The position numbers and the translations under genes were made by a program. From Burkholderiales bacterium (lineage in GTDB: Bacteria; Pseudomonadota; Gammaproteobacteria; Burkholderiales; Burkholderiaceae_C), in NCBI GenBank assembly GCA_016191525.1, contig JACPOK010000026.1, positions 62,001 to 126,000 on the forward strand: a DNA stretch of 64,000 nucleotides. Direction: 5' to 3'. Shown here one piece after another: positions 34,845 to 59,844 of the stretch. The notes under the pieces are model-generated. The model saw nothing but the letters and a program-made list of their open reading frames with translations, was not told the origin of the DNA and did no database searches. Position 1 is the first letter of the stretch; each line of letters opens with the position of its first letter.

Positions 34845-36515
34845 ATGCGCACGAGAGTTCTCGAGGATTGGCTTGCCAAGCACCCATGGGTGGCTACACC
34901 TGCTGCACTGGCGGGTGCCGTGGCCTTGTGGATCGTCGTCTTCGACAATTCGGCCTTCTGGCGCCTCTTGTGGGCGTCTCGCGATACGTCATCGTTGCGC
35001 GGCGCCTTGGCGATTGCTGGCTTGGGGCTGGTCCTGTGGTCCTTCTTTTCGTTGATCGCGCGCTTGCTGTGCTGGCCCGGCGTGGGCAAGCCCATCATCG
35101 CCCTGCTGGTAGCGATCGCGGCCCTCGCTGCGTACTTCACGGGGACCTATGGCGTCCTGGTTGACAAGGGCATGATGCGCAATGTGCAGCAGACCGATTG
35201 GCGCGAAGTGGCTGACCTCCTGTCGTGGCCCCTGCTGCTCGACTTCGCGTGGCGTGGTCTTCTGCCTGTGGTGTTGGTGCTGGGGGCGCGCGTTTCTTAT
35301 CCGGGCTGGTTCCCGGCGGCGACCGGAATCGCCCGCAGTGCTCTGTTGTTTGCCGGCGTTGCAGTGGGATGCATGATGACTTTCTATCCTGACTACGCGG
35401 CCGCAGCAAGGAATCACCGCGAGCTTCGCCACCTCCTGACGCCGACCAATGTGTTTAACGCCATGGCGGGCCTCTGGAAGGAGCGCTCGCGGGCCGACCG
35501 CAGCCTCGTGCAAATCGGCCTCGATGCGCAGCGCGATCCAGTCCAACCGGGCGCCAAGCCCCTGCTGGTCGTGCTGGTCGTCGGCGAGACCGCGCGGGCG
35601 GCGAACTTTTCGCTCGGCGGATACCCCCGAGCAACGAATCAGGCCCTGGCCGGCAGGGACGTCGTCTATTTCAACGACGTGCGCTCCTGCGGCACGGATA
35701 CGGCAACCTCTTTGCCCTGCATGTTCTCGGACCTGGGTGCCGCGCGGTTCTCGGCGGCCGAGGCGGGCGCCCGCGAGAACGTGCTCGACATCCTTGCACG
35801 CGCGGGTGTCAAGGTGAGCTGGCACGACAACAACTCGGGCTGTAAGGGCGTGTGCGAGCGCATCCCGTCGCAAGATCTGTCCGCCGGCGGCGATCCGGGG
35901 TTGTGCGCGGCCGGCGAGTGCCTCGATGGGGTGCTGCTGCAAGGGCTGCGCGAGGGCCTGTCCGCTGCGGCACCGGCCAGCCTGCTGGTGCTGCACATGA
36001 AGGGCAGCCACGGGCCGGCCTACTACAAGCGCTATCCGTCGGCGGGCCGGCGTTTCGAGCCGACCTGCGACACCAACGAAATCCAGCGCTGCAGCGTCGA
36101 AGCGCTGCGCAACACTTACGACAACGGCATTGCCTATACTAGCCAGGTGCTGGCCGACCAGATTGACCTGCTCGCGACGCAGGCCGGGCGTGTCGATAGC
36201 GTGCTGCTCTACGCGTCGGATCATGGCGAGTCACTTGGCGAGCGCAACATTTATCTGCACGGGCTGCCGGTGCCCTTTGCCCCACGCGAGCAGACGCATG
36301 TGCCGATGCTGGCATGGTTCTCGGCCGGGGCGCGCGAGCGCCTGGAGCTGAACGCGGGCGCGCTGCGGCAAATCGCAACGCAGCCGCTCTCGCACGACAA
36401 CCTGGCGCCTACTCTGCTCGGACTGTTCGGCGTGCGCACGAGCGCCGTCCGGTCTGAACTCGACATGATGGCGGGGGCGCGGCGCGCCGCCCCGCAGGGA
36501 GCCGGTGTACGATGA
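34845..36515 (+). CDS. eptA: EptA/MCR-family lipid A phosphoethanolamine transferase
   Basis: 556 aa. Five N-terminal membrane helices precede a periplasmic alkaline-phosphatase-fold domain. Catalytic features: VVGETARAANFSLGGY (metal-ligand Glu248), SCGTDTATSLPCMFS with the catalytic Thr (about 286), and YASDHGESLGE (metal-binding Asp-His). It adds phosphoethanolamine to lipid A, lowering negative charge; homologues give polymyxin resistance. It directly follows a two-component system and overlaps the LTA-synthase-like gene by 4 nt, as in pmr-type loci. Confidence 0.9.
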   Translation: MRTRVLEDWLAKHPWVATPAALAGAVALWIVVFDNSAFWRLLWASRDTSSLRGALAIAGLGLVLWSFFSLIARLLCWPGVGKPIIALLVAIAALAAYFTGTYGVLVDKGMMRNVQQTDWREVADLLSWPLLLDFAWRGLLPVVLVLGARVSYPGWFPAATGIARSALLFAGVAVGCMMTFYPDYAAAARNHRELRHLLTPTNVFNAMAGLWKERSRADRSLVQIGLDAQRDPVQPGAKPLLVVLVVGETARAANFSLGGYPRATNQALAGRDVVYFNDVRSCGTDTATSLPCMFSDLGAARFSAAEAGARENVLDILARAGVKVSWHDNNSGCKGVCERIPSQDLSAGGDPGLCAAGECLDGVLLQGLREGLSAAAPASLLVLHMKGSHGPAYYKRYPSAGRRFEPTCDTNEIQRCSVEALRNTYDNGIAYTSQVLADQIDLLATQAGRVDSVLLYASDHGESLGERNIYLHGLPVPFAPREQTHVPMLAWFSAGARERLELNAGALRQIATQPLSHDNLAPTLLGLFGVRTSAVRSELDMMAGARRAAPQGAGVR

Positions 36516-38443
36516 GCTTCAATCTCGACGCACTCCGGGGGGTGATTCGTCACGCCGCGCCGTCGGGTCGCGCGATGACCCTTGCTTGGGTCGTGGCACT
36601 GTTCCTGGCGGTCAATCTCCTCGTGCGCATTGGCCTCATCGGTTTCGATGGGGACTCGGCGGTGCTGCTACCGTGGCGGTTGGCGGCCGTGCTCGGCATC
36701 GGCACGCTGTATGATCTGGCGGCACTCGCCTGGGTGCTGCTGCCGTTTGCGCTGCTGGCGCTTGTCTGCAGTGACAGCCGATGGGGACGCACGGTACATG
36801 CGGCGCTGGCGAGCACAGCCTTGGCAATCCTGGTCGTCGCCCTGTGCTTCGTCGCTGCCAGCGAGTGGGTGTTCTGGAGCGAGTTCGGCGCGCGCTTCAA
36901 CTTCATCGCCGTCGACTACCTGATCTACACGCGCGAGGTGGTCGGCAACGTGCGAGCGTCGTATCCGATGGAGCTGCTGCTCGGCACGGTTGCTGCCGCC
37001 GCACTGCTTTTGCTCGCTCTCGTCGCCAAGCCTTTTGTACGAGCCGCCCTGGCGCCTGCGGGCAGCATGGGCGCCCGGTTTCGCAGCTTCGCGGCCCTGC
37101 TTGCGCTGGCGCTTGTGTTGCAGATCGCGATTAGCGACGGGCTTCGTGAGGTGGCAGGGCCCGCATCGGCTGGGCAGCTCGCGAGCAATGGCTGGTACGA
37201 ATTTTTCCGCGCCTTCCGCAACAATGACCTTGACTATCGAGCGTTCTACCGCGTGATGCCGGCCGAGCGCGCCCACGCACTGGTCCGGCACGATCGGCAA
37301 GCGCCAGACGCAGTGCATCCGCGCTTGCCGCTCAACGTCGTGATGGTGTCGATGGAGAGTCTGGGTTCCGACTACGTGGAATCGTTTGGGGGCCGGCCCG
37401 GGCTGACACCACGGCTCGACGCTCTGGCCCGCCAAGGCTTGATGTTCACCGACCTGTACGCGACCGGATTGAGAACTGTGCGCGGGCTGGAGGCGCTGAC
37501 CCTTTCCGTGCCACCGACGCCCGGTCATGCAGTGCCGATGCGCAAGCACAACAAGGGATTTTCCACGGTAGGCGGGGCCTTTGCCAAGATGGGCTATGAG
37601 CCGCTGTTCCTCTATGGGGGTTATGCCTATTTCGACAACATGCGCGATTTCTTCGGTGGCAACGGCTACACGGTAATCGACCGAACCGATATCGCGCAGA
37701 AGAACATCAATCACGAGACGGTCTGGGGGGTGGCAGACGAGGACCTGTTCGCCCAGGCACTGCGCGAGATCGACGCGCGGGCGAAGCGCGGCAGCCGCTT
37801 TTATGCGCACATCCTGACAACCTCGAACCACCGCCCCTTCACCTATCCGAACGGCCGCATCGACATTCCCTCGGGTAGTGGGCGCGACGGTGCCGTCAAG
37901 TACACCGACTGGGCAGTCGGCCGCTTCATGGACGAGGCGAAAAAGCAGCCGTGGTTTTTGGATACGCTGTTCGTGTTCGTCGCCGATCACACCTCCAACG
38001 GCCGCGGCCGAACCGACCTGCCCCCAGCCAACTACCGTATCCCATTCTTCCTGTATGCACCGCGTCACGTCGCACCAGGGCGGGTGCCCTGGACGGCCTC
38101 GCAGATCGATGTGGGTCCCACGGTGCTGGCATTGCTGGGCGCAGTTCCCGAACCACAGTTTTTCGGCACGGACATTCTGCGCCACGGTCGAGAGCATCCA
38201 CGTGCTTTCATGGCCAACTACCTGACTGTCGGTTACATGGATGACGGCCTGATCGTAGAGTTGACGCCCCGGCGCGGCGTTCGCGTCGTCGATGCAGCCA
38301 CGGGCGATCTGGTGCCCAACGGTGAAGCGCGGGCGGCGGGCATCATCGATCAGGCGGTCGCGAACTACCAGATGGCCAGCGACCGCCTCCGCGGGCCGAT
38401 GGCGGCCGCGCGCTGGCCGACTGTCGGCTCCGATGGGCGCTGA
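36512..38443 (+). CDS. LTA-synthase-family sulfatase-domain membrane protein
   Basis: 643 aa. About five N-terminal membrane helices precede a sulfatase/alkaline-phosphatase-fold domain with NVVMVSMESLGSDY (metal ligand Glu), TDLYATGLRTVRGLE (catalytic Thr region), the TSNHRPF segment and FVADHTSN (Asp-His metal site). In Gram-negatives these LTA-synthase-like enzymes (OpgB/LtaS-like) transfer phosphoglycerol or phosphoethanolamine groups to periplasmic glucans or lipids. Here the acceptor is unknown. Translation is coupled to the eptA gene. Confidence 0.82.
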   Translation: MSFNLDALRGVIRHAAPSGRAMTLAWVVALFLAVNLLVRIGLIGFDGDSAVLLPWRLAAVLGIGTLYDLAALAWVLLPFALLALVCSDSRWGRTVHAALASTALAILVVALCFVAASEWVFWSEFGARFNFIAVDYLIYTREVVGNVRASYPMELLLGTVAAAALLLLALVAKPFVRAALAPAGSMGARFRSFAALLALALVLQIAISDGLREVAGPASAGQLASNGWYEFFRAFRNNDLDYRAFYRVMPAERAHALVRHDRQAPDAVHPRLPLNVVMVSMESLGSDYVESFGGRPGLTPRLDALARQGLMFTDLYATGLRTVRGLEALTLSVPPTPGHAVPMRKHNKGFSTVGGAFAKMGYEPLFLYGGYAYFDNMRDFFGGNGYTVIDRTDIAQKNINHETVWGVADEDLFAQALREIDARAKRGSRFYAHILTTSNHRPFTYPNGRIDIPSGSGRDGAVKYTDWAVGRFMDEAKKQPWFLDTLFVFVADHTSNGRGRTDLPPANYRIPFFLYAPRHVAPGRVPWTASQIDVGPTVLALLGAVPEPQFFGTDILRHGREHPRAFMANYLTVGYMDDGLIVELTPRRGVRVVDAATGDLVPNGEARAAGIIDQAVANYQMASDRLRGPMAAARWPTVGSDGR

Positions 38444-38500: not shown

Positions 38501-38953
38501 TTAATAGGAAGCGTCCGGGCGATCTTCTTTCTTCGCCGGGGCGAGGAAGCGCAAGGTCACATAAGTGACCACGCTCAGGATCACGGCGATATCGTAAAGG
38601 CCGTAACCTACCGCTGCCCCGAGTGCGCCCGTCGCCCACAGGCTTGCGGCCGTCGCCGTTCCGAGGGCTTGCGTTCCGTGCTTCAGGATCGCGCCACCCC
38701 CGATGAAGCCGACACCGGTGATCAATCCCTCAAGAATTCGGGCCTGACCCGATGAGGTTGCGCCGAGGACGCCGATCGCGACCAGCACGAAGCCGCAAGC
38801 AGCCATCGCGACCAGGGGGAAGGTCCGGATTCCAGCGCTGCGTTCCTCGCGTTCCCGATTCCATCCGATCGGGAGCGCGAGCAAATACGCAACGACAAGG
38901 CTAATCACATGGGATAGCACTTCCCATAGGTTCAGAGACGAGATCGCAGCCAC
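38501..38953 (-). CDS. MgtC/SapB family membrane protein
   Basis: 150 aa, about four helices: LPIGWNREREERSAGIRTF and the signature ITGVGFIGGGAILKHG typical of MgtC/SapB. The longer MgtC ACT-like tail is missing, so it is the SapB-like short form. The family is linked to Mg2+ limitation and acid or macrophage survival, with no proven transport. Start is a GTG that overlaps the TAG stop of the CDF gene, so the two are co-translated. Confidence 0.85.
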   Translation of the reverse strand: MAAISSLNLWEVLSHVISLVVAYLLALPIGWNREREERSAGIRTFPLVAMAACGFVLVAIGVLGATSSGQARILEGLITGVGFIGGGAILKHGTQALGTATAASLWATGALGAAVGYGLYDIAVILSVVTYVTLRFLAPAKKEDRPDASY

Positions 38954-39870
38954 TAAAGTCTCAATTCGCCCTCGGCCTGCCGCAGGTTCTGATCCTCGAT
39001 CTGGATCGTCGCATGCGTCAGGCCGAAGCCGGTCTTCATCGCGTCACAGGCGCTGAGAAGCGTCGTGCGCGCTTGGGCCATGTCGGCTACGACCAGGTGG
39101 CAGCTCATGGCGTCGATGCCGGAGGTTATCGTCCAGACATGCAGATCGTGGACGGCCGTCACGCCGGGAATGGCTAGCAACTTTCGCTCCACGAGAGCCA
39201 AATCGACTTCGGGCGGTGTGCCTTCCATCAGGATATGGATTGCCTGCTTCAACAGTATCCACGTGCGCGGAATGATGAAAAGCCCGATGCCGGCGCCGAT
39301 GATCGGATCGGCCAGCGTCCAGCCGGTGACCATGACAACGCCTGCGGCCACGATGACGCCGAGCGAGCCCAGCATGTCGCTTAACACTTCGAAATAAGCT
39401 CCCTTAACATTCAGGCTCTCTGACGATCCCGCCGAAAGAAGTTTCATGCTTCCAAGATTCACCGCGAGGCCGACGATCGCCACCGCCAGCATCGGGCCAC
39501 CCAGAATTTCGGGTGGGTCTACAAAGCGTTTGTATGCCTCGTAGAAGATGTAGATCGTCAACAGCAGGAGCACGACCGCGTTCGTCAGCGCCGAAAGAAC
39601 CTCCATGCGAACGTAGCCATAGGTCTTCTGCGGAGTCGCGGGGCGTTCCGAAAACCGGACGGCGATCAGCGCCAGCGCAAGACCGCCGGCATCGGTCAGC
39701 ATGTGGGCCGCGTCGGCCAGCAGTGCAAGGCTGCCTGTCCACAGACCGCCGACCACCTCGACCGCCATGAAGGTCGTCGTCAGCGCAAGCGCTCCCAGGA
39801 GCTTGCTCTTATGCCGCCCCGCAGCGGTCACGGACGGCGCTGAAGCCGCGCGCGCATGTCCTGCTCCCAC
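38953..39870 (-). CDS. czcD: CDF-family zinc/cobalt/cadmium exporter (CzcD-like)
   Basis: 305 aa from a GTG at 39870. Six membrane helices carry the two site-A motifs LLADAAHMLTDAGGLA (H-x3-D in helix 2) and YFEVLSDMLGSLG (helix 5, E-x3-D rather than H-x3-D). The C-terminal cytoplasmic domain has HDLHVWTITSGIDAMSCHL. It exports divalent metal by proton exchange. The change of the helix-5 His to Glu differs from zinc-selective CzcD/ZitB and could alter metal choice; I infer this by eye. It pairs with an MgtC/SapB protein. Confidence 0.88.
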   Translation of the reverse strand: MGAGHARAASAPSVTAAGRHKSKLLGALALTTTFMAVEVVGGLWTGSLALLADAAHMLTDAGGLALALIAVRFSERPATPQKTYGYVRMEVLSALTNAVVLLLLTIYIFYEAYKRFVDPPEILGGPMLAVAIVGLAVNLGSMKLLSAGSSESLNVKGAYFEVLSDMLGSLGVIVAAGVVMVTGWTLADPIIGAGIGLFIIPRTWILLKQAIHILMEGTPPEVDLALVERKLLAIPGVTAVHDLHVWTITSGIDAMSCHLVVADMAQARTTLLSACDAMKTGFGLTHATIQIEDQNLRQAEGELRL

Positions 39871-40476: not shown

Positions 40477-40677
40477 ATGCCCACCCAACCCACCGAACAA
40501 CCTGGCGCCCATCATCCTCACGAGGGGCACGTCCCCGGCGACCTCGATCCGCATGGTCACAGGGACAAGACTGTTCCTCCGCAGGTGGAGCAGCCGGGAG
40601 CCCATCATCCGCATGAAGGCCACAAGCCGGGCGATCTCGATCAGCACGGCCATCGCGATACTGGCGGCAAAAAGTAA
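40477..40677 (+). CDS. 66-residue His-rich protein made of two tandem repeats
   Basis: 66 aa, no signal peptide. It is almost wholly two copies of a 24-residue unit, EQPGAHHPHEGH-x-PGDLD-x-HGHRD, starting at residues 7 and 38 and joined by a short KTVPPQV linker. Each unit has six His plus acidic residues, so strong Zn/Ni/Cu binding is likely. ACTGGAGAAAAAAC gives a plausible ribosome-binding site. Other small His-rich proteins (Hpn-like, or the HGHxPGD proteins of Burkholderiales) are metal buffers; I cannot assign a name. It faces the zinc-ribbon gene across a divergent region of about 200 nt. Confidence 0.7.
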   Translation: MPTQPTEQPGAHHPHEGHVPGDLDPHGHRDKTVPPQVEQPGAHHPHEGHKPGDLDQHGHRDTGGKK

Positions 40678-41290: not shown

Positions 41291-41632
41291 TCACCCGGGT
41301 GCATGGACCAGTGCCGTCATGCGCAGTGCCATATCGATGCGATCGGCTCGGAAGCGGACATTGTCTCCTGGGGCACGGCCGATGATCAAACGCGCCTCCA
41401 CATAACGGAAGGTCGTCGTGCCGGCGGGGAGGTGGAGGTGGGGGATACCGTTGTGCCGCAAGGTGATCCTGCCGCCCTCGGCGTCGATGTTGACGATGCG
41501 GCCGGCAATGAAGTCATTGGCCGAAGGTTGCGCGAAGAGGCTTCCACCGGGCACGAGCATGCATGCGGCGGCGAGCAGCGCTCGGCGGGACCAGCTTGAG
41601 GACCTGCAAGCCAGACTTGAATCGCAATTCAT
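41291..41632 (-). CDS. Degenerate CusF-family protein
   Basis: 113 aa from ATG 41632. A signal peptide with Arg-Arg (SSWSRRALLAAACMLVPGGSLFA) could be Tat- or Sec-type. The mature part has the CusF-like pattern GRIVNIDAEGGRITLRHNGIP ... PGDNVRFRADRID, but the Trp/Met copper motif is replaced by HLHLPAGTTTF, leaving His residues. It may bind another metal or have lost binding. It is 41 nt upstream of the DUF4124-like gene and divergent from the TelA-like operon. Confidence 0.6.
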   Translation of the reverse strand: MNCDSSLACRSSSWSRRALLAAACMLVPGGSLFAQPSANDFIAGRIVNIDAEGGRITLRHNGIPHLHLPAGTTTFRYVEARLIIGRAPGDNVRFRADRIDMALRMTALVHAPG

Positions 41633-41789
41633 GGAATTACCCCGAACCAGTGTAATTAAGGCCGACGGCGGCCTGAGGGACTTGGCGGCCGGACTGCGTG
41701 ACCGGCGAAGGTTTCGAACACTGCCACAATCGTACACTGCGGGGCTGGGCGGTGACGCGATCACCCGATCCGCCCCCAGAGGAGAAACC

Positions 41790-42959
41790 ATGGAACGCAG
41801 CATTGTCCCCACCGTAGTGCCCGCGCCGTCGCCGGTGCTGGCCCCAATTGTTCAAGATCCCTTGGAGACCGGAGCCATCGTCCTGCGGCCGGAGCAGGTG
41901 CTGCAGGCCGAACAGGCACTGGCCGCGCTGGACTTCGCAGCCGTTCCATCTGGCGACATCATCAAGATCGGCCTCGGTGCGGAACAGGCATTGCAGAAGA
42001 CGCTGGACGGCTTTCTTGCGCGGCTCGACAAGAAGACGGCGTCCAAGGTGTTCGCCCTCTTCGGACGCTTGGAAAAGGGTGTCGACGACGCGAAACTGCC
42101 TGAAATCCTGGACAAGATCCAGAAGGGCGAGGATCCGGGATTTTTCGCCGGTTTGTTTGCCAAGCTCACCGGCCGCAAGCCCGAGGAGGCCTTTCGCGAG
42201 TTCATGCAGGAGGTCGGTGAGTTGATCTCCAGCCGGACCCAGACGCTGGCCGACGAGATGGGCCGCCTGGAGGGCGAACTGTCGAAGGAAATGAAGACGC
42301 TGTTCGGCGAACTACAGGCGCTGGAGACCCTCAAGCAATCCTACGGCACGCACTTCGCCAGCTTCACCGTCGATGCGGCAGTGGCCCGGGCGTTTCTCGA
42401 AAAGGCCCGGAAATACCTGGCGCAGCAGACCGCGGCAGCTGACCCGGCCGACGTGTCCGCCCTGGCCCGGCTGCGAGAGCTGCAGGACAAGCTCCGGCTG
42501 CTGGAAAGCCGGGCGCTGGCGCTCGAAGGCACGTACACGCGGCTGCCGGCCGATCAGATGGTGATCCAGCAGATCGAGGCCGCCGGCATCGCGACGCTGC
42601 AGGAGACGGCCACCACGGTCTCGTCGCGGTTCGCGTCGATCAAGATGACCTTGCTGGCCATCCACGGCGCGTTCGCGGTCAAGTCGGTGCAGCAGATTGC
42701 CGAGCGCCAGGCGCGTCTCGACCAGCAGTTGACGCAGCTGCGCGGCCAGGCCACCAAGGACGTGGCCGTTGCTGCGGCGAAGGCACCCGGTGACAACCGT
42801 GTCGCGCAGGCGCAGCAAATCGCCGCCATCATCACGCAGACGCGCGAGATCCACGAACTGGTCGAAGCCGCCAAGCAGGAGAGCGAAGCGAAGTTCGAAA
42901 CGGCGAGGCAGATGTTCGAGCAGTCGCGCGCCGAGCTCGCGGCGCTGCGCAAGGCATGA
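41790..42959 (+). CDS. TelA/KlaA-like toxic-anion-resistance protein
   Basis: 389 aa from ATG 41790, preceded by AGAGGAGA. Almost entirely helical. The N-terminal part is Pro-rich; the middle has PGFFAGLFAKLTGRKPEEAF followed by long coiled-coil helices; the C-terminal part includes VIQQIEAAGIATLQETATT, matching the TelA (PF05816) pattern of a QIR-type helix followed by a dynamin-like stalk arrangement. TelA proteins occur with TerC/TerD genes and confer tellurite or phage-related stress tolerance; the mechanism is unknown. First gene of a tight four-gene operon (gaps of 19, 13 and 13 nt). Confidence 0.75.
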   Translation: MERSIVPTVVPAPSPVLAPIVQDPLETGAIVLRPEQVLQAEQALAALDFAAVPSGDIIKIGLGAEQALQKTLDGFLARLDKKTASKVFALFGRLEKGVDDAKLPEILDKIQKGEDPGFFAGLFAKLTGRKPEEAFREFMQEVGELISSRTQTLADEMGRLEGELSKEMKTLFGELQALETLKQSYGTHFASFTVDAAVARAFLEKARKYLAQQTAAADPADVSALARLRELQDKLRLLESRALALEGTYTRLPADQMVIQQIEAAGIATLQETATTVSSRFASIKMTLLAIHGAFAVKSVQQIAERQARLDQQLTQLRGQATKDVAVAAAKAPGDNRVAQAQQIAAIITQTREIHELVEAAKQESEAKFETARQMFEQSRAELAALRKA

Positions 42960-42978
42960 CCATCACTCCGGAGAAGCT

Positions 42979-43635
42979 ATGCTCACACTGACTCTAGACA
43001 AGCCCGGCGCCGCGCCGGCCCGCAAGCTGCAGCTCTCGCTCAACAAGGGCGCTGCGTTCAAGGTGACCGTCGCATGGCAGTGCGACGCCAGCCACCAGGA
43101 TGACATCGACATCCACGCGCTCGAGGCGCGCAATGGCGGCAATGGCGCGAAGGTCGCGGCGCTCGAAGAGATCCTGTCCACCTACAACACAACGAAGATG
43201 AGCCCGAAAACCGGCGTGCTGGCGTCAGCGGCGGATGGCTCGTTCGCCACGCCCTCCGGCGGGCTCAGGCATTCGGGCGACGTCCGGGTGCAGGGCAACA
43301 CCGAAACCATCGTCGTCGACGGCGCCAAGCTGCCCGCGGGCGTCAACGAGATCCCTTTGTTCGCTACCGTCCACAAAGCCGAGCACGGACAGGGCCACGA
43401 CGAAGGCGCCGCGTCCGAGGACGAGCCGGCCTTCGCCGACATCGAGGTCTGCACCGTCACCATCGCGGACGAGGGCGGGCGCGAGTTGGGCGCCTACCAG
43501 CTGTCCAAGGAGTTCGGCGAGTTCAACGTGGTGCAGCTGGGCAGCATCATGCACGGCGACAACGGCTGGGAGTACGCTCCCGTGGGCCGTGGCTTCACCG
43601 GGACGTTCAACGATGTTTTGGGCCACTTCTCCTGA
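42979..43635 (+). CDS. TerD-family tellurium/stress resistance protein
   Basis: 218 aa, cytoplasmic. The N-terminal strand LTLTLDKPGAAPARKLQLSLNKG and core DDIDIHALEARNGG, DVRVQGNT, GVNEIPLFATVHKA, CTVTIADEGGRELGAYQLS and MHGDNGWEYAPVGRGF follow the TerD beta-sandwich with Ca2+-binding Asp positions. An insertion of acidic and His residues (EHGQGHDEGAASEDEP) is unusual. TerD proteins are Ca2+-binding and join membrane-linked complexes with TerC. It is the second gene of the TelA/TerD/vWA operon. Confidence 0.85.
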   Translation: MLTLTLDKPGAAPARKLQLSLNKGAAFKVTVAWQCDASHQDDIDIHALEARNGGNGAKVAALEEILSTYNTTKMSPKTGVLASAADGSFATPSGGLRHSGDVRVQGNTETIVVDGAKLPAGVNEIPLFATVHKAEHGQGHDEGAASEDEPAFADIEVCTVTIADEGGRELGAYQLSKEFGEFNVVQLGSIMHGDNGWEYAPVGRGFTGTFNDVLGHFS

Positions 43636-43648
43636 ACTGAGGCCAGTC

Positions 43649-44629
43649 GTGCCGCCCCCGAATGACAAATTGCGCCCGACGGTCATTGGCCCCGCGGGCG
43701 CTTCCCTGCGCAGCCCTGGGGGTGCCGCGCCGCAGCCGGTGGACGCGCCATCTCCGGCGCGCCGTGTACCCGCGGCGACGCCGGTGGTGCGGCGGGCGAC
43801 GGCCATGCCCGGCGCCGAAAGAACGCGCATCGAAGTGGCCGCGCGCGATCTGGAAGCGTTGTCGCCGGGGGCGGCGGCCGCTGTCTATCAGCAGGCGCGC
43901 TCGCTGATTGGCGCATTCGTCCTCGGCAAGGGTGCGCAGCGCAAGGCGATCCTGTGGGGCCACGACCTGCAGAAGGCGCACGGAGACCTCGTCACCGAGA
44001 TGCTGGCCCTTGCGCGCAGCCCTGTGCTGCGCCAGGTGGAGGGCTACCTCGCACGGATGATGGACATCCTTGGATCGATCGACCTCATGGCCGTCTGCGG
44101 ACACGGCGGCGACAGCGTCGTGCGCCGGCTCTTCCAAGGCGTCAACGGCAGGATCGACACGCCGGGCGAACTGGCCAAAGCCCAGGCCGAGCTGGAACAG
44201 CTGCTGGCACTCATGGGCGGGGCGCTCGACCCCCTGCTGGATCTGAAGGACCGGCTGCTGTGCCTGTCCGGCTCGATGGAGGGCGCCGCTGCTCAGGTCG
44301 AAGCCGCCGCCATCGGCGCGCTGTTCCTGTCGGAGCGCCTTCGTCAGGACGACGCCGCGCTGGCGCAGCGCTTTGCCGAGCGCAGCATGAGTCTCACGCA
44401 GACCTTGGCGCAGATGCGGCAAACGGGCTCCACGCGGGAATCGCAGATCGAGCAGCCGATCCGCATGATCGGCGCCATCCAGAACGTGGCGCTCGTCGTC
44501 ATGCCGGCATTCATCGGCAGCATTGCCACCGTCGCCACACTGGGCGCCAGGAAGACCACGATCTCGCCGACCGAAGCCGGCGAACTGGCCTATCGGCTGC
44601 GGGACATCATCAGCCAGTTGAAACCCTGA
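43649..44629 (+). CDS. TelA-like helical protein of the Ter operon
   Basis: 326 aa from GTG 43649; a later ATG at 43805 would remove the Pro/Arg-rich leader. The leader (1-55) is unstructured; the rest is helical, with segments SLIGAFVLGKGAQRKAILWG, a Gly-rich CGHGGDSVVRR, and near the end SQIEQPIRMIGAIQNVALVV followed by a hydrophobic helix. The QPIRMIGAIQN stretch resembles the C-terminal QIRLIQ region of TelA, so this could be a second, diverged TelA half working with the first gene. No named family is certain. Confidence 0.55.
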   Translation: MPPPNDKLRPTVIGPAGASLRSPGGAAPQPVDAPSPARRVPAATPVVRRATAMPGAERTRIEVAARDLEALSPGAAAAVYQQARSLIGAFVLGKGAQRKAILWGHDLQKAHGDLVTEMLALARSPVLRQVEGYLARMMDILGSIDLMAVCGHGGDSVVRRLFQGVNGRIDTPGELAKAQAELEQLLALMGGALDPLLDLKDRLLCLSGSMEGAAAQVEAAAIGALFLSERLRQDDAALAQRFAERSMSLTQTLAQMRQTGSTRESQIEQPIRMIGAIQNVALVVMPAFIGSIATVATLGARKTTISPTEAGELAYRLRDIISQLKP

Positions 44630-44642
44630 ACCAGGAGCACAC

Positions 44643-45434
44643 ATGAACAGCAAACTCACACTGAATCTCGACAAGTCGGCCAACGCGCTGCGCCTCGCGC
44701 TCGACAAGGCCGGCGTGGTGGCGAACGTGAAGGCGGAAACCGCCGCCATCATCGACGTCTCCGGCTCGTTCGAGCACGAGCATGAGGAGGGCACGACCAG
44801 CATCCTGATCGAGCGGCTCGTACCGTACTGCATGGTGCTCGACCCGGACCGCAAGATGGACGTCTTCACCTTCAGCGACGGTGAACGCAACGCCCACTAC
44901 TTGGGCGCGGTGACGCCCGACGATGCGCGCGACTACGTCACGCGCAACATCGTCGACCGGGTTCCGGGCTGGAACGGCGGCACGACGTACAGCTTCGTTC
45001 TCGAGCGCGCGCTCGAGCACTTCGGATGGAAGGCGTGCGAGGAGGCGCACCGCTCATCGCAGGGCGCCGGCTTCCTGAGCCGGCTGTTCGGCTGGTCACC
45101 GGGCGGGCATGAGCACAGTGCGTCGCACACGCACGAGAAGAGGCGCTCGCTGGTTCTCTTCATCACCGACGGCGAAAACGACGGCAGCGACGAGGCGCGC
45201 ACCATGCGCGTCCTGGAGGAATCGCAGCAGCGTGGCGACCAGGTCTACTTCCTGTTCATCGGTGCCTGTGAAGACAAGGGCGTCACGTTCGAATTCGTAC
45301 AGAAGATCGCGCGCCGGTTCAGGAATACCGGCGTGGTGGTGATCCGCGATCTCGAAGCCTTCGTGGCGCAATCGGACGAGGAACTCAACGCCGCGCTGCT
45401 TGGAGCCGAGCTTGTCGAGTGGCTGAAGTCGTAG
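44643..45434 (+). CDS. von Willebrand factor A domain protein of the Ter operon (TerY/TerF-like)
   Basis: 263 aa. The N-terminal 25 residues (NSKLTLNLDKSANALRLALDK) copy the first strands of TerD proteins. A vWA domain follows with all MIDAS residues: AAIIDVSGSFEHEHEEG (D-x-S-x-S), the Thr in GGTTYSF, and FITDGENDG. A His-rich insertion (HEHSASHTHEK) lies before the last MIDAS loop. It is likely a divalent-cation-dependent protein-binding partner that assembles the TelA/TerD proteins. No signal peptide, so it is cytoplasmic. Last gene of the operon. Confidence 0.82.
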   Translation: MNSKLTLNLDKSANALRLALDKAGVVANVKAETAAIIDVSGSFEHEHEEGTTSILIERLVPYCMVLDPDRKMDVFTFSDGERNAHYLGAVTPDDARDYVTRNIVDRVPGWNGGTTYSFVLERALEHFGWKACEEAHRSSQGAGFLSRLFGWSPGGHEHSASHTHEKRRSLVLFITDGENDGSDEARTMRVLEESQQRGDQVYFLFIGACEDKGVTFEFVQKIARRFRNTGVVVIRDLEAFVAQSDEELNAALLGAELVEWLKS

Positions 45435-46159: not shown

Positions 46160-47437
46160 ATGCAATTCCCCACACTGGTGCTGGCCTTCGTGCTGGCTGC
46201 CACCACCGCGTCAGCAAGCGCACAGAGTTCTGCTGGGGGCGGCTCGCTGTCCCTGGCCGAGGCGATGCGCCTGGCCGAAACAGCGAGCACGGCAGTCCGC
46301 TCCAAGGAGGCGCAATTGGCCGCCGCTGAGGGCGCCCGCCTTGAAGCCGCATCACCGTTTTTCCGCAACCCCGAGCTGAGCGTCGAGAAAACACGGCGCC
46401 AGTCAGCGGTTGCCGATTCGCGGGCCAGCGAGTGGACCGCAGGCATTGCCCAGCCCATCGAAATCGGGGGCCAACAGTCGCGGCGGCGTGAGGCAGCGGC
46501 CGCTTCCTTGGATGCATTGCGCGCGGAAATAGACGATTCACGCCGCCGGGCGCGCTCGGATGCAGCATCACGTTTTTTCGCCGTACTGGCAGCCCAGCGG
46601 CGGTTGTTGGTCGAGCAGCGGTCGCTCGACCTGTTCGACCGCGCTGCGCAGGCGGTCGCTAAGCGCCGAAGCGCGGGAGAGGACACTCGCCTTGACGCCA
46701 ATGTGGCATTGATTGAGGCGGAGCGCGCGCGCAATGCGGTTGCGCGGGCTCGCGAGCAAATCCTGGAAGCGCGCGGCGAGCTTGCCACTTTGCTGCAACT
46801 GCCGGCTGCGAATCTGACCGAGGTTGTGGGAGAAATCGGCGTGCCACCCGTCGATCGCCTCCCCTATGGACTCGACCAAATGCAGTCTTCGGCTCAGACA
46901 CTTCCCAGGCAGCGTGCGCTCACAGCTCGCCTGGACGCCGCGAAGGCCCGCGTGGCCCTGGCTCGGGCCGGTCGCCTCCCGGACCTAACGGTGGGGGTCA
47001 ACGTTGGCCGTGAGGGTTCCAGCGTCGCGCGCGAGCGGGTCACCGCGTTGGTGTTGAGAATGCCGCTTCCGATTTTTAATCGCAACGACGCCGCCATCGG
47101 CGAAGCCTTGACGGCTGCCACCCAGGCTGAAGTCGATCGCGACAGCGGCATGCGCAATGCGCTGGCGCAGGTTAGGGGACTCTGGAGCAAACTTGAAAGC
47201 CAGCGGGAGCGCGTGGAGCGCCTGCAGCGCACCATGCTCGCTGCCGCCACCGACAACCAGCAGCTTGCCGCGAAATCCAGGCAAGCCGGCCAGATCGGCC
47301 TGCTTGAGCAGCTCATCATTAACCGCCAGGCGCTGGACGCCGAGCGCGACCTGATCGAGGCTTTGGCGGACTATCACACGACCCGAATCGAACTTGAAAA
47401 TGCGGCCGGCTGGTCGCAGGAAGGAACTGCGCGATGA
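46160..47437 (+). CDS. czcC: CzcC outer membrane channel (TolC family)
   Basis: 425 aa. A signal peptide (to ASA, about 22) precedes two outer-membrane-efflux repeats of long helices: GSLSLAEAMRLAETAS and ASPFFRNPELSVE at the start, then the second repeat LDAAKARVALARAGRLPDLTVGVNVGREG. It forms the outer membrane and periplasmic tunnel for CzcBA. It overlaps czcB by 4 nt. Confidence 0.92.
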   Translation: MQFPTLVLAFVLAATTASASAQSSAGGGSLSLAEAMRLAETASTAVRSKEAQLAAAEGARLEAASPFFRNPELSVEKTRRQSAVADSRASEWTAGIAQPIEIGGQQSRRREAAAASLDALRAEIDDSRRRARSDAASRFFAVLAAQRRLLVEQRSLDLFDRAAQAVAKRRSAGEDTRLDANVALIEAERARNAVARAREQILEARGELATLLQLPAANLTEVVGEIGVPPVDRLPYGLDQMQSSAQTLPRQRALTARLDAAKARVALARAGRLPDLTVGVNVGREGSSVARERVTALVLRMPLPIFNRNDAAIGEALTAATQAEVDRDSGMRNALAQVRGLWSKLESQRERVERLQRTMLAAATDNQQLAAKSRQAGQIGLLEQLIINRQALDAERDLIEALADYHTTRIELENAAGWSQEGTAR

Positions 47438-48663
47438 AGATGTTCAACGATGCCGCTGGGCGCCCTGTGCGCTTGACTGCGCTGGCTGTAGCCCTAGCGA
47501 TGGTGTTTGCACTTGCTGCTTGCGGCAAGAGCGGAGAGAAGGACGCGGCTGCCGGTGACAGTGCCAAGAGCGCCGAGAAGTCTGGGGACAAGAAAGAGAA
47601 GGAAGGCGATCACAAGGAAGGCGAGAAGGCGCTGACCCTGACCACCGAAGAGGCGGAAAAGGCCGGCGTCAAGGTTCAGGAGATCAAAGCCGAAACCATG
47701 GGCGAAACCATTGTCGTCACGGCGACGATCGAGCCCAATCAGGAGCGGGTGGTGCGGGTGGCGCCACGTGTCGAGGGCAGAGTCATCGCCATGCCAGCAA
47801 AGCTCGGTGACCGGGTCGCCGTGGGACAGACCCTGGCGACTCTCGACAGCGTTGCGGTGGGCGAGGCCCATGCGGCCTGGGTCCAGGCGCAGGCCGAGCA
47901 GCGGATCGCCGAAAGTGATTTCAAGCGTGCCGAGTCGCTCATCGCAGACGAGATCATCCCGCGCAAGGACTTCCTGCGCGCCCAGGCCGAAAGGGACAAG
48001 ACCGCAGCCAACGCCCGCAACGCCGCCGACCGACTGCGGCTGCTCGGGGGAGCGCCGCGCGCGCAAGGCGGCGGTGTATCCACCTTTGCTCTGACGTCGC
48101 CATTCGCGGGCACCGTGATCGAGAAAAAGGCCTCTCTGGGCGGCCTGGCCAGTCCGAGCGAACCGATCTTCACCATTGCCGACCTGGGGCTTGTCTGGAT
48201 TCAGGCGGCCCTGCCGGAATCCGCTCTGGCGAAAGTGCGGGTGGGCGCCAGCGCCAAAGTGACGGTGCCGGCCTATCCCGCCGAGTCCTTCAGCGGCCGC
48301 GTGGCGCATATCGGCGCCGGCGTCAACAAGGATTCACGCACGGTGGCTGCGCGCATCGAAGTCACCAACGCCGATGGACGTCTGAAGCCCGAGATGTTTG
48401 CCACCGCAACCATCGAGGTGGCCGGCGAGAAGCGCGGCGTGATGACGCTGCCTGACGACGCGATCGTGTTGATGCAGGGGCAACCCACTGTCTTCGTCTT
48501 TGAACAGGGCGCCTACGCTGCGCGTGTGGTCGAACCCGGCGAACGGATGGGCGGCCGCACGGTACTCAAGGCCGGCATCAAGCCGGGCGAGCAAGTCGTA
48601 ACTGCGGGCGCATACGCGCTGAAGGCACGAACGCTCAAGTCGCAAATCAGCGGCGGGCATTGA
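47434..48663 (+). CDS. czcB: CzcB periplasmic adaptor (membrane fusion protein)
   Basis: 409 aa. A lipoprotein-like signal (VFALAACGKSGEKD) is followed by a Lys/Glu/Asp-rich, repetitive linker and the HlyD-type adaptor: VAPRVEGRVIAMPAKLGDRV (lipoyl half), a helical hairpin, LTSPFAGTVIEKKASLGGLA and beta-barrel segments ending at GEQVVTAGAYALKA. It lacks the extra N-terminal zinc-binding and C-terminal domains of some CzcB proteins. It couples CzcA to CzcC. Confidence 0.92.
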   Translation: MKMFNDAAGRPVRLTALAVALAMVFALAACGKSGEKDAAAGDSAKSAEKSGDKKEKEGDHKEGEKALTLTTEEAEKAGVKVQEIKAETMGETIVVTATIEPNQERVVRVAPRVEGRVIAMPAKLGDRVAVGQTLATLDSVAVGEAHAAWVQAQAEQRIAESDFKRAESLIADEIIPRKDFLRAQAERDKTAANARNAADRLRLLGGAPRAQGGGVSTFALTSPFAGTVIEKKASLGGLASPSEPIFTIADLGLVWIQAALPESALAKVRVGASAKVTVPAYPAESFSGRVAHIGAGVNKDSRTVAARIEVTNADGRLKPEMFATATIEVAGEKRGVMTLPDDAIVLMQGQPTVFVFEQGAYAARVVEPGERMGGRTVLKAGIKPGEQVVTAGAYALKARTLKSQISGGH

Positions 48664-48678
48664 GAAGGACTATAAATA

Positions 48679-51600
48679 ATGCTCAATGCAATAGTTGAAG
48701 CCTCCCTGCGCTACAAGGTGCTGGTGATGGTGGCTTTGGTGGTGCTGGCCGGCCTCGGCGTGATGGCGTTTCGGCAAGTGCCGGTCGATGCCTTCCCCGA
48801 TGTCACGCCCGTCCAAGTCAACGTCTACACCGAGTCCCCGGGGGTCGCTGCCGAAGATATCGAACGGCTGCTCACTGTGCCGATCGAGGGCGCGATGGCG
48901 GGCCTGGCCGACGTCGAGGTCGTACGCTCGGTGTCGCTGTTCGGCCTGTCCTATGTTGGCGTCTACTTCAAGGACGATGTTGATATCTACTTCGCTCGCC
49001 GTCTCGTAGGCGAAAAACTGCAGGAGGTCAAGGGGCGCCTGCCGCAGGGTTACGGCCAACCCGAACTCGGGCCGAACAGTTCGGGCCTGGGCCAAGTGTT
49101 CTGGTACACCATCGAGGACGCCGACAAGAAGCTCAGCGCGATGGACTTGCGCACGCTGAATGACTGGACTGTGCGTCTGATTCTGCGCACTGCGCCGGGC
49201 GTTGATGATGTGACGTCATGGGGTGGTTACGAGAAGCAGTTCCAAATCCAGATCGATCCGCGCCTTCTGCTGAAGTACAAGCTCTCGTTCAAGGACGTGA
49301 TGGAACGGGTCGCCGCCAACAACAAGCAGGTCGGTGGCCAATACCTGAACATTGGTGTAGAGCAGTACCTGGTGCGCGGGCTGGGCTTGGTCGGTAATGC
49401 GGTCGAAATTGGTGACATCGTTGTGGCCGAGCGCAACGGTTCGCCGGTCCGCGTCAAGGATGTGGCCGCGGTGAAGGAGGCCCCTGCGGTGCGGTTCGGC
49501 GCGGTGACGCGCAACGGCAAGGAGACCGTGCTGGGCATGGCACTTGCTCGGGTCAACGAGAACGCCGCCAAGGTGGTTGAAGGCACAAAGGCCAAGCTGG
49601 CTACTGCACAGGCGGCCCTGCCCAAAGGCGTAGAGCTGAAGGCGGTGTACGACCGCACCGAAATCGTCGCCAAGGCGGTGAAGACTGCTGAAAGCGCTTT
49701 GCTGGAGGGCTCGATCCTTGTCGCGGTGATCCTGTTCCTCTTCCTGGGCGAGTTGCGCTCGGCGTTGGTCGTCGTGGTAACACTGCCGCTGGCCATGCTG
49801 TTCGCCTTTATCTGCATGCAACGCTTCGGGCTGTCGGCCAATCTGATGTCGCTGGCCGGACTGGCCATCGGCATCGGCATGATGGTCGACGGCGCGGTGG
49901 TGATGGTGGAGAACGCCTTCCGCCTGCTGTCGCATGCACGCGAGTCGGGCCGGCCGATCAGCCGCACCCACGTCGTGCTGGAAGCGGCCCATGAGGTGGC
50001 CAATCCGATTGCGTTCGCTATCCTCATCATCATCGTCGTCTTCCTGCCCCTGTTCTCGCTGACCGGGCTGGAGGGAAAGATGTTCAAACCGATGGCGCTG
50101 ACGATCACGTTCGCGATGCTGGGTTCGCTGATCCTGTCGCTAACCGTCGTGCCTGTTCTGGCTGCGCTGATCCTTAAGCCCATGGAGGAGAAGGACACCT
50201 GGCTCGTGCGCCACGCGAAAAGGTTTTACTTGCCATTGCTGGATTGGGCCCTCGAACGCAAAAAGCTCGTCGTCCTTTCGGCGGTGGGGCTTCTGGTGGG
50301 GTCGCTGGCGCTCTTTCCGCTGCTGGGCAAGGAATTTATGCCGCAGCTGACTGAAGGCACCGTGATGTTCCGCGTGTCGGCAATTCCATCCACATCGCTG
50401 GAGGAGTCTGTTCGCATCGCCAATGTGATGGACGCCAAGCTGCGCGCCAAGTATCCGCAGGTGAACTCGGTGTTGGCGATGATTGGTCGCGCCGAGAAGG
50501 GCGAGACCACGGACGTGAGCTACATGGAGTTGCTGCTCGACTTGAAGCAACCGAAGGAATGGCCGCAGAAAATCGGCTATGCCGAACTTGCCAAGGACAT
50601 GCAGGAGATGCTTGAGGTCGAAGTGCCGACCGCCGTTTTCACGGCGACGCAGCCGATTCAGAGCCGGGTCGAAGAGCTGATTTCCGGCGTGCGTGCGACG
50701 CTGGCACTTAAGGTCTATGGCCAGGATCTCGACAAGCTGGAGGAACTGTCGGCCCAAATCCAGGGCGTACTCGGTGCCGTGCCCGGTGTGGCCGACCTGT
50801 CGGCCGAGGCCAATAAGGGCAAGCCGCAGATGGTCATCAAGGTGGACCGTGCGGCCGCGGCGCGGTACGGCCTCAACGCTGACGACATTCTCCAGGTCGT
50901 GCAAGCCGGGATTGGCGGCGAGACCGTCTCGACCCTGATCGAGGGGACAAAGCGCTTCGACATCGCCGTGCGCCTAGCCGACGAGTTCCGCAGCAGTCCG
51001 TCGGCCATCGCCAACATCCCGATCCGCACCGCCGAAGGGGCTTTGGTGCCCTTCTCTCAGGTCGCCAAAATCGACTTGGACGAAGGCTACACATTTGTGC
51101 GCCGCGAAGCCTTGCAGCGCTATGCCGTGTTGCAGATGGATGTTCAGGGACGCGATGTCGACAGCTTCGTGAAGGATGCGGACGCCGCCATCAAGGCAAA
51201 AGTGAAGATGCCCACCGGCTATTGGGTCGAATGGGGCGGCGCCTTTGAAAACCAGCAGCGTGCAATGGCTCGCCTGGCGATCATCGTGCCGCTGACCATT
51301 GGCCTCATCTTCATTCTTCTGTACACGGCTTTCAACTCGCTTCGGCATGCCACGCTGATCATTGCCAACGTGCCGTTTGCCATCATCGGCGGGATCATCG
51401 GCCTGTTCATCACGAGGCAGTACCTGTCGGTGCCGTCGGCGATTGGCTTCATCGCCGTCTTCGGGGTGGCGATGTTGAACGGCATCGTTCTGGTGACCTT
51501 CCTGAACGATCAGCGAAAGCATGGCCTGTCGATCCGTGACGCGGTACGCCAGGGCGCGGCGATGCGTTTGCGTCCGGTTCTCATGACAGCTTCGGTGGCC

Positions 51601-51801
51601 ATCCTGGGATTGGTGCCGATGCTACTCTCCTCGGGCGTCGGCGCCGAAACGCAGCGGCCCCTGGCGACCGTGGTCGTGGGCGGCTTGATCACGTCCACGC
51701 TGCTGACGTTGCTGCTGTTGCCGCTCCTCTACGAATGGTCCGAGACCCGGGCAGAGGCGCGGCAGCGCGCGCGCAACCCGGACGAATCAACGACATCTTG
51801 A
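48679..51801 (+). CDS. czcA: Heavy-metal RND efflux pump CzcA-like
   Basis: 1040 aa, twelve membrane helices, two periplasmic loops, with PVDAFPDVTPVQV at the start typical of HME-RND pumps. The helix-4 motif is LAIGIGMMVDGAVVMVENAF: D404, G, A and E411 are kept, but the first Asp of the CzcA DFG motif is Gly398, and the helix has features midway to CusA. Substrate (Zn, Co, Cd, Ni) is therefore uncertain even though the gene order czcICBA is classical. 15 nt after czcB with a weak AAGGA. Confidence 0.92.
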   Translation: MLNAIVEASLRYKVLVMVALVVLAGLGVMAFRQVPVDAFPDVTPVQVNVYTESPGVAAEDIERLLTVPIEGAMAGLADVEVVRSVSLFGLSYVGVYFKDDVDIYFARRLVGEKLQEVKGRLPQGYGQPELGPNSSGLGQVFWYTIEDADKKLSAMDLRTLNDWTVRLILRTAPGVDDVTSWGGYEKQFQIQIDPRLLLKYKLSFKDVMERVAANNKQVGGQYLNIGVEQYLVRGLGLVGNAVEIGDIVVAERNGSPVRVKDVAAVKEAPAVRFGAVTRNGKETVLGMALARVNENAAKVVEGTKAKLATAQAALPKGVELKAVYDRTEIVAKAVKTAESALLEGSILVAVILFLFLGELRSALVVVVTLPLAMLFAFICMQRFGLSANLMSLAGLAIGIGMMVDGAVVMVENAFRLLSHARESGRPISRTHVVLEAAHEVANPIAFAILIIIVVFLPLFSLTGLEGKMFKPMALTITFAMLGSLILSLTVVPVLAALILKPMEEKDTWLVRHAKRFYLPLLDWALERKKLVVLSAVGLLVGSLALFPLLGKEFMPQLTEGTVMFRVSAIPSTSLEESVRIANVMDAKLRAKYPQVNSVLAMIGRAEKGETTDVSYMELLLDLKQPKEWPQKIGYAELAKDMQEMLEVEVPTAVFTATQPIQSRVEELISGVRATLALKVYGQDLDKLEELSAQIQGVLGAVPGVADLSAEANKGKPQMVIKVDRAAAARYGLNADDILQVVQAGIGGETVSTLIEGTKRFDIAVRLADEFRSSPSAIANIPIRTAEGALVPFSQVAKIDLDEGYTFVRREALQRYAVLQMDVQGRDVDSFVKDADAAIKAKVKMPTGYWVEWGGAFENQQRAMARLAIIVPLTIGLIFILLYTAFNSLRHATLIIANVPFAIIGGIIGLFITRQYLSVPSAIGFIAVFGVAMLNGIVLVTFLNDQRKHGLSIRDAVRQGAAMRLRPVLMTASVAILGLVPMLLSSGVGAETQRPLATVVVGGLITSTLLTLLLLPLLYEWSETRAEARQRARNPDESTTS

Positions 51802-57208: not shown

Positions 57209-59844
<2,636 letters not shown>

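Follow-up and report, generated by a model that had tools for sequence, protein, structure and literature searches.

A compact, mobile four-gene Ter-type module with two distant TelA relatives in a heavy-metal island of a Burkholderiales bacterium

The window analysed here, a stretch of 64,000 nt from contig JACPOK010000026.1 of a Burkholderiales bacterium (GCA_016191525.1), contains four same-strand genes at 41790-45434 (+), termed g1 to g4. An original prediction, made from the letters alone, had described them as a compact operon of TelA-like, TerD, TelA-like and von Willebrand factor A (vWA) genes, possibly belonging to an undescribed stress or defence system. The coordinates and the intergenic gaps of 19, 13 and 13 nt agree with that description, and sequence comparisons indicate that the four genes represent a compact, horizontally mobile and conserved Ter-type module:

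41790..42959, + strand: g1, helical protein of 389 aa, a divergent TelA relative
42979..43635, + strand: g2, TerD protein of 218 aa with an acidic/His insertion and a DxDxH motif (D42, D44, H46)
43649..44629, + strand: g3, second TelA-like protein, 326 aa, GTG start, low-confidence N-terminal tail with RPTVIG
44643..45434, + strand: g4, TerF-type vWA protein of 263 aa with a full metal ion-dependent adhesion site (MIDAS) and a TerD-like N-terminal stretch

Ribosome-binding-type stretches precede all four genes (GGAG ahead of g1, g2 and g4, GAGG ahead of g3), and such a stretch appears to be all that the window and seven relatives have in common upstream, the start codon of some of these rows being set at the start of the match. 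Neither g1 nor g3 gave a credible match to a Pfam, NCBIfam or PADLOC family, and no model of PADLOC 2.0.0 matches any of the four proteins up to an expect value (E) of 1; g2 and g4 are matched by PHROGs 5698 and 5359, respectively, both of unknown function. The genome contains one TerD (PF02342) match in all, g4 is its one vWA-TerF-like protein, and no match to TelA (PF05816) or TerB (PF05099) was obtained in it at E 0.001. Two TerC genes are present on another contig. Consequently, the predicted lack of TerB holds throughout the genome, whereas that of TerC holds for the locus only.

A pattern-based search for g1 in 84,980 genomes yielded 50 loci, a number to be read as a lower bound, and annotated records contributed six more, from five of seven g1-bearing plasmids and one record labelled as a phage. 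The order g1-g2-g3-g4 on one strand is complete in 50 of the 56 loci. Three incomplete examples (L013, L019 and L060) lie at contig ends, as inferred for L019 from its near-twin L020; g4 follows only after a further 6.5 kb in L020 and 1.4 kb in L022; and L021 is without g2, its g1 frame running into g3, through either a deletion or an assembly join. When 55 loci and the window were grouped at 88% g1 identity, with L021 excluded, 28 groups were obtained, 26 of which contain an intact four-gene example. The idea of a dedicated system, which an unconserved gene order would have refuted, thus withstands this check, and the proposal of a reduced Ter-family module with two TelA-like proteins is supported.

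The carriers are labelled as alpha-, beta- and gammaproteobacteria and, among metagenome-assembled genomes (MAGs), whose labels can be wrong, as Chloroflexi, Dehalococcoidia and Moraniibacteriota; some copies reside on plasmids. Within the bacterium's own order the spread is patchy, since g3 was found in its own genome only among 150 genomes of the order, and a search of 399 genomes with g1 returned, besides the bacterium itself, a single weak partial match. Comparison with loci L012 and L014 defines the extent of the mobile unit:

41764..45434, + strand: mobile cassette, a contiguous blastn match (89%) running from 26 nt ahead of g1 to the stop codon of g4

Separate matches in the same comparison, to a cation diffusion facilitator (CDF) gene (76%) and to a resistance-nodulation-division (RND) efflux gene (69%, L014), both lie on the other side of the module, and the restriction of contiguous DNA similarity to the four genes marks these, at the sequence level, as a cassette. 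A stretch of 17-19 kb is common, at 99.5-99.7%, to L014 (labelled Gammaproteobacteria), L015 (Rhodocyclaceae) and L016 (Achromobacter ruhlandii), which points to recent transfer unless the MAGs are contaminated. Two assemblies carry two differing versions of the module each, Acidovorax facilis DSM 649 (L017 and L019) and the Sideroxydans MAG WOFB26 (L020 and L021). The record labelled as a phage (L008, MT836679) is an 18-kb faecal “Bacteriophage sp.” sequence in which the entire module is accompanied by genes for a P-type ATPase, a CDF and a penicillin-binding-like protein, and is probably a mislabelled fragment of a bacterial metal island.

The second gene is the most readily classified, and the earlier assignment of a TerD protein with an acidic-His insertion is borne out: g2 scores 48.6 bits against PF02342 (cut-off 25.3), with only profile positions 67-187 matched, and its acidic/His stretch is an insertion relative to PDB 3ibz. 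The motif D-x-D-x-H is present in the TerD of all 28 group representatives with an invariant His, a position at which canonical TerD-family rows carry Ser in 24 of 24 cases, some of the rows being duplicates. Among phage proteins, His is found in the TerD of Acinetobacter phage 313, encoded beside a g1 gene, and Ser (DxDxS) in those of CcrColossus, CcrBL9, CcrPW, Kikimora and one VEcB protein. At this position Val and Leu occur in two XaC1 proteins, and a second VEcB row, which reads Ser without a DxD, is by its sequence probably no TerD. The DxD of g2 presumably corresponds to Ca-site residues 40 and 42 of Klebsiella pneumoniae TerD. When the residues of its two Ca2+ sites, as given in part of PMC8779313, are compared with g2, D101 and E109 of g2 correspond to D78 and E89, V102 takes the place of N79 and T that of D88, and the loop that holds residues 82 and 84 is missing. 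By this alignment, the predicted Ca1 site of g2 would retain two acids, while its Ca2 loop would be shortened.

The assignment of g1 and g3 is less direct. As single sequences, neither of the two window proteins reached the Pfam TelA cut-off or gave any hit, and profiles were therefore used: by means of hhalign, alignments of 37 g1 and 38 g3 proteins were set against 19 TelA proteins, 18 of which are encoded in genomes of the same class as the window and the other by phage CcrColossus. The g1 profile matched TelA with a probability of 90.9% (E 1.1e-6) and the g3 profile with 94.4% (E 9.2e-8), and the two matched each other with 37.5%. The homology to TelA spans some 200 profile columns. The controls, for each comparison one reversed and six block-shuffled targets, stayed at or below 1.6% and rule out a chance resemblance between helical proteins. 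The third protein is thus a TelA relative and no member of an unrelated family, although the likeness, formerly placed at its end, covers residues 98-298. Among orthologues, g1 of R. rhododendri (L007) exceeds the Pfam TelA cut-off (33.3 vs 30 bits) and g3 of the same locus scores 13.1 bits; for L045 and L048 neither g1 nor g3 matched Pfam TelA. Judged by sequence, g1 and g3 are distant TelA relatives that remain outside the family by Pfam's own criterion, so that the TelA likeness first suggested for g1 holds at the profile level.

Structural comparisons back rather than prove this relation. The g3 model (predicted local distance difference test, pLDDT, 83.9; residues 1-52 below 50 except one) retrieved from BFVD two uncharacterised Caulobacter phage proteins at the top (E 1.2e-4 and 7.4e-4, TM-scores 0.45-0.54), followed by phage tellurite-resistance proteins at E above 0.001. 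For the g1 model, the best matches are phage tellurite and toxic-anion proteins, its four matches below E 0.001 comprising a tellurite, a toxic-anion, an unnamed and a tail fibre protein (9.1e-4). The BFVD matches depend on long helices; their TM-scores lie below 0.5, and even the best have root-mean-square deviations of some 20 or more. Sequence searches of PDB gave nothing credible for g1 or g3, and a PDB fold search with the g3 model gave no match below E 0.001. Its matches to helical pore-forming proteins, at 5e-3 and worse, were judged unspecific.

Short motifs recur near the starts of both TelA-like proteins. The pattern [KR]P[TKR][VIT][ILV] occurs in 36 copies in 30 of 39 g3 tails (shuffled mean 0.31, maximum 3), numbers that overstate the evidence, since the motif was composed after viewing the tails and these are mutually related. 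Six PTxI-like copies are found in the L048 tail by a looser pattern. In g1, MKPTxIG is present in nine of the 28 representatives and PTx[IV] near the start in 13.

For g4, both earlier claims, a full MIDAS and a TerD-like start, are upheld. It scores 56.9 bits against PF10138 (vWA-TerF-like, cut-off 29.4), and the MIDAS residues D38, S40, S42, T114 and D176 are invariant in nine aligned proteins, including three from phages; a sequence search of PDB returned midasin at E 0.0042. The score of the TerD-like start is reached by 0.6% of 500 shuffles in the window and by at most 3.4% in 25 of 26 loci, L052 being the exception (10.8%). Similarity between TerD and vWA starts is higher for matched than for permuted pairs (mean 32.5 vs 28.1, 27 pairs; none of 5000 permutations as high). 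Concerted evolution of the two starts is nevertheless not claimed, because the Rhizobium vWA start scores 27.4 to its own TerD and 29.2 to that of the main clade.

TerF normally consists of a TerD domain fused to a vWA domain, whereas g4 has just a short TerD-like stretch. With the classical ter operon (terZABCDEF) the module has a TerD domain and a TerF-type vWA in common, but it differs in its single TerD, in its two TelA-like proteins and in having no TerB in the genome and no TerC nearby. It likewise differs from bona fide TelA (PF05816), with which g1 and g3 share distant homology but whose Pfam cut-off the window proteins do not reach. TerC was not found in the stretch around the window module, and the same holds for 27 of the 28 groups, the window included; the exception is L048, where two TerC genes precede the module. 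This bears on tellurite resistance in the narrow sense, which the TerD and TelA-like parts bring to mind and for which the two TerC genes of the own genome could act in trans. Resistance in P. citronellolis required terC plus terD or terE, according to part of PMC8779313, and given the single group with a nearby TerC, such a role is considered highly improbable.

Relatives of the module are encountered in phages. In the jumbo phages CcrColossus, CcrBL9, CcrPW and Kikimora, genes for TelA, vWA, TerC/DUF475, TerD and a g3-like protein occur in a row. By profile, the fifth protein matches g3 with 82.8%, TelA with 88.0% and g1 with 1.7%; reversed and shuffled controls reached at most 2.4%, by which chance helical similarity is ruled out here as well. 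It is probably the CcrColossus match of the g3 model search, because both have the same length, 336 aa. These abbreviated Ter operons resemble the module in containing TelA, vWA and TerD with a g3-like protein after TerD, but they include TerC, their order is TelA-vWA-TerC-TerD-g3-like, their TerD reads DxDxS, their TelA is of the Pfam kind (121.3 bits for CcrColossus) and their g3-like protein is unlike g1. Acinetobacter phage vB_AciJM_313 encodes, in order, a g1 protein (91.2 bits), TerD, a 57-aa open reading frame (ORF), vWA and TerC. It is therefore like the module in its g1-type protein, DxDxH TerD and vWA, and unlike it in that the 57-aa ORF stands in place of g3 and TerC follows. Among 50,697 phage records, only this phage matches its g1 protein, and scans of viral contigs revealed no relative, either via the g1 alignment or via the Acinetobacter phage protein.

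These phage sets raise the alternative that the module excludes phages or plasmids by blocking their entry at the membrane, phages carrying versions against competitors, as was proposed for jumbo-phage Ter systems by Iyer et al. (2021; PMC7824862); the consulted part of that article reports TerD, TerC, TerF and TelA in Caulobacter phages and leaves the fifth protein unnamed. The shared parts, the 81 phage records that encode a g4-like vWA, the mobile and patchy occurrence and the effect of ter insertions on phage inhibition, mentioned in the introduction of PMC12054061, speak for it. However, the phage sets have TerC, which 27 of the 28 bacterial groups lack nearby, and defence models are few in the surroundings of the module, none matching the four proteins themselves. 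For this comparison, 279 neighbour proteins were picked by ORF and GC-frame rules and 277 scanned, 26 of the 28 groups giving any: PADLOC returned one protein-level hit set in 139 of them and, in the other 138, mad3 four times and further models once each, among them effector and cyclase models resembling the cyclic-oligonucleotide-based anti-phage signalling system (CBASS). On balance, exclusion appears unlikely, though it deserves serious consideration. Of the original choice between stress and defence, the neighbours indicate metal handling over a defence island, with the reservation that, of the three pump families sought, any lies near the module in just ten of the 28 groups.

In the window, the module is surrounded by genes for metal efflux and binding:

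38953..39870, − strand: CDF cation-efflux transporter (PF01545)
40477..40677, + strand: small His-rich two-repeat protein of 66 aa, an optional companion, no Pfam family
41291..41812, − strand: CusF-like copper-binding protein (PF11604, 48.8 bits), the divergent neighbour
46160..51801, + strand: outer-membrane, membrane-fusion and RND efflux genes (PF02321, PF16576; RND gene by its translation)

The CusF-like ORF as listed overlaps the g1 start by 23 nt, and its true start therefore probably lies further in. Five of the six P1B-ATPase matches of the genome are located on this contig, three of them in the window (2005-3702, 10055-11773 and 58066-59787), which makes the contig a heavy-metal island. 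Seed searches covered 9 kb around the module where the sequence reaches, flanks differing in length and being short in some loci. They found CDF genes in six of the 28 groups, P1B-ATPases in seven, RND genes in four and any of the three in ten, as well as MgtC in four, NRAMP in three and CorA in two. Gene counts in the 28 carrier genomes would lead one to expect 0.43 genomes for CDF and 0.90 for P1B, an enrichment that represents association only, as flanks vary in length and metal genes cluster. In the first half of the scanned neighbours (139), Cation_efflux was counted five times, E1-E2 ATPase four times and CorA and MgtC three times each; the tally of neighbour proteins also holds two ACR_tran matches.

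The His-rich repeat protein (62-91 aa, two or three HHxHxGHxPGDLDxHGHRD-like repeats) is probably metal-binding. It occurs in the window, L018, L022, L026, L027, L030, L040 and L041, and no more than 1.4 kb from the module in six of the 28 groups, its position and strand varying; eight of the 28 carrier genomes have it, in seven of them beside the module. It was also found on 11 plasmids, all of them different from the seven that carry g1. On the Sphingobium and Novosphingobium plasmids of L003 and L004, the annotated flanks comprise a mechanosensitive channel, a GH130 gene, divalent-metal transporters and an alpha/beta hydrolase with phosphate acetyltransferase and acetate kinase genes.

These observations are tentatively read, with slightly less than even confidence, as a reduced, mobile Ter-type module that would protect the inner membrane and be tied to divalent-metal stress. 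Studies published on related systems support, by analogy, a link to metals or the envelope: ter genes of Klebsiella respond to Zn, Mn and Te (PMC12054061), and TelA and TerD are described as likely envelope-stress proteins (PMC11128244), each according to the part of the article consulted. In this model, the four products would assemble on the cytoplasmic side of the inner membrane, where TerD would bind a divalent cation through the Ca1-like site and the adjoining module-specific His. Via its MIDAS and its TerD-like N-terminal stretch, g4 would connect TerD to a scaffold beneath the membrane, built from the two TelA-like proteins with their long helices; the PTxI-like motifs near the N-termini of these two proteins may serve as docking sites. 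The scaffold would then steady the membrane under divalent-metal or other envelope stress and back up the companion pumps, while a TerC membrane partner, if required, would act in trans.

Several observations weigh against this reading. The g1 structure model is the weaker of the two (pLDDT 66.8). In 18 of the 28 groups none of the three pump families was found in the stretch examined, some flanks being short, and the second half of the neighbours (138) is less metal-rich, with three multicopper oxidase, two E1-E2 ATPase and two TerC matches, the last two both from L048. Evidence on metal induction comes from L027 and L030, which derive from Mesorhizobium STM 2683 and STM 4661, the strains of Maynaud et al. 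(2013; PMC3668242). In both, a P1B-ATPase separates the module from a CcdA gene, which fits the cadA/ccdA labels 740030/740029 and 360013/360014. According to the consulted part of that RNA-seq study, cadA, ccdA and 740031 are induced by Zn/Cd, cadA strongly, and its Tables 4 and 5 of Zn/Cd-regulated genes contain no 740-series label above 740031 and no 360-series label below 360013. By these labels, which are inferred from gene order, the module is unlisted as Zn/Cd-regulated in the two strains under those conditions, and it may be constitutive or responsive to another stress.

Because metal genes cluster, hitchhiking of the module is possible: it could be a general envelope-stress module, directed for example against antimicrobial peptides or oxidants, that resides in metal islands as these collect mobile stress genes. 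The Mesorhizobium data and the 18 groups without pump genes fit this alternative, as do the otherwise stress-related and metabolic neighbours in Sphingobium and Novosphingobium. Against it stand the CDF and P1B neighbours above expectation, the location of CDF on opposite sides of the module in different loci and the His-rich protein adjoining the module in seven of the eight carrier genomes that have it. Hitchhiking is regarded as rather improbable. A bolder reading, in which the module is a separate, self-sufficient and mobile branch of the Ter systems, is put forward as doubtful speculation: two co-inherited TelA-like coils with multivalent PTxI-like tails, TerD and a MIDAS vWA might form a metal-gated sub-membrane lattice, the TerD Ca site being retuned to a transition metal by the invariant His, common to metal-resistance islands and jumbo phages, where competitors would be excluded.

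Lacking TerB and in most cases a nearby TerC, yet kept across distant lineages and echoed in phages, the four-gene unit offers a small test set for the biochemical role of TelA and TerD. The module defines two protein families, g1 and g3, annotated as hypothetical in the annotated plasmid records examined, and can be located by the signature of g1, g3 and a DxDxH TerD. No description of the four-gene unit was found in the literature searched, which did not extend to the survey of Anantharaman et al. (2012), where an earlier mention is possible. New here are the His signature of the module TerD, the g3-tail motif, the nearby metal-efflux genes and His-rich repeat protein, and the phage gene sets, both those of the four jumbo phages with their g3-like protein and that of the Acinetobacter phage. 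The main points of interest are the His signature, the two-TelA make-up and the frequent metal-island setting.

Other neighbours in the window are MgtC, zinc-ribbon and sulfatase/EptA genes. Two adjoining sulfatase-fold genes at 34845-38443 (+), the first with a phosphoethanolamine-transferase N-domain, suggest envelope modification.

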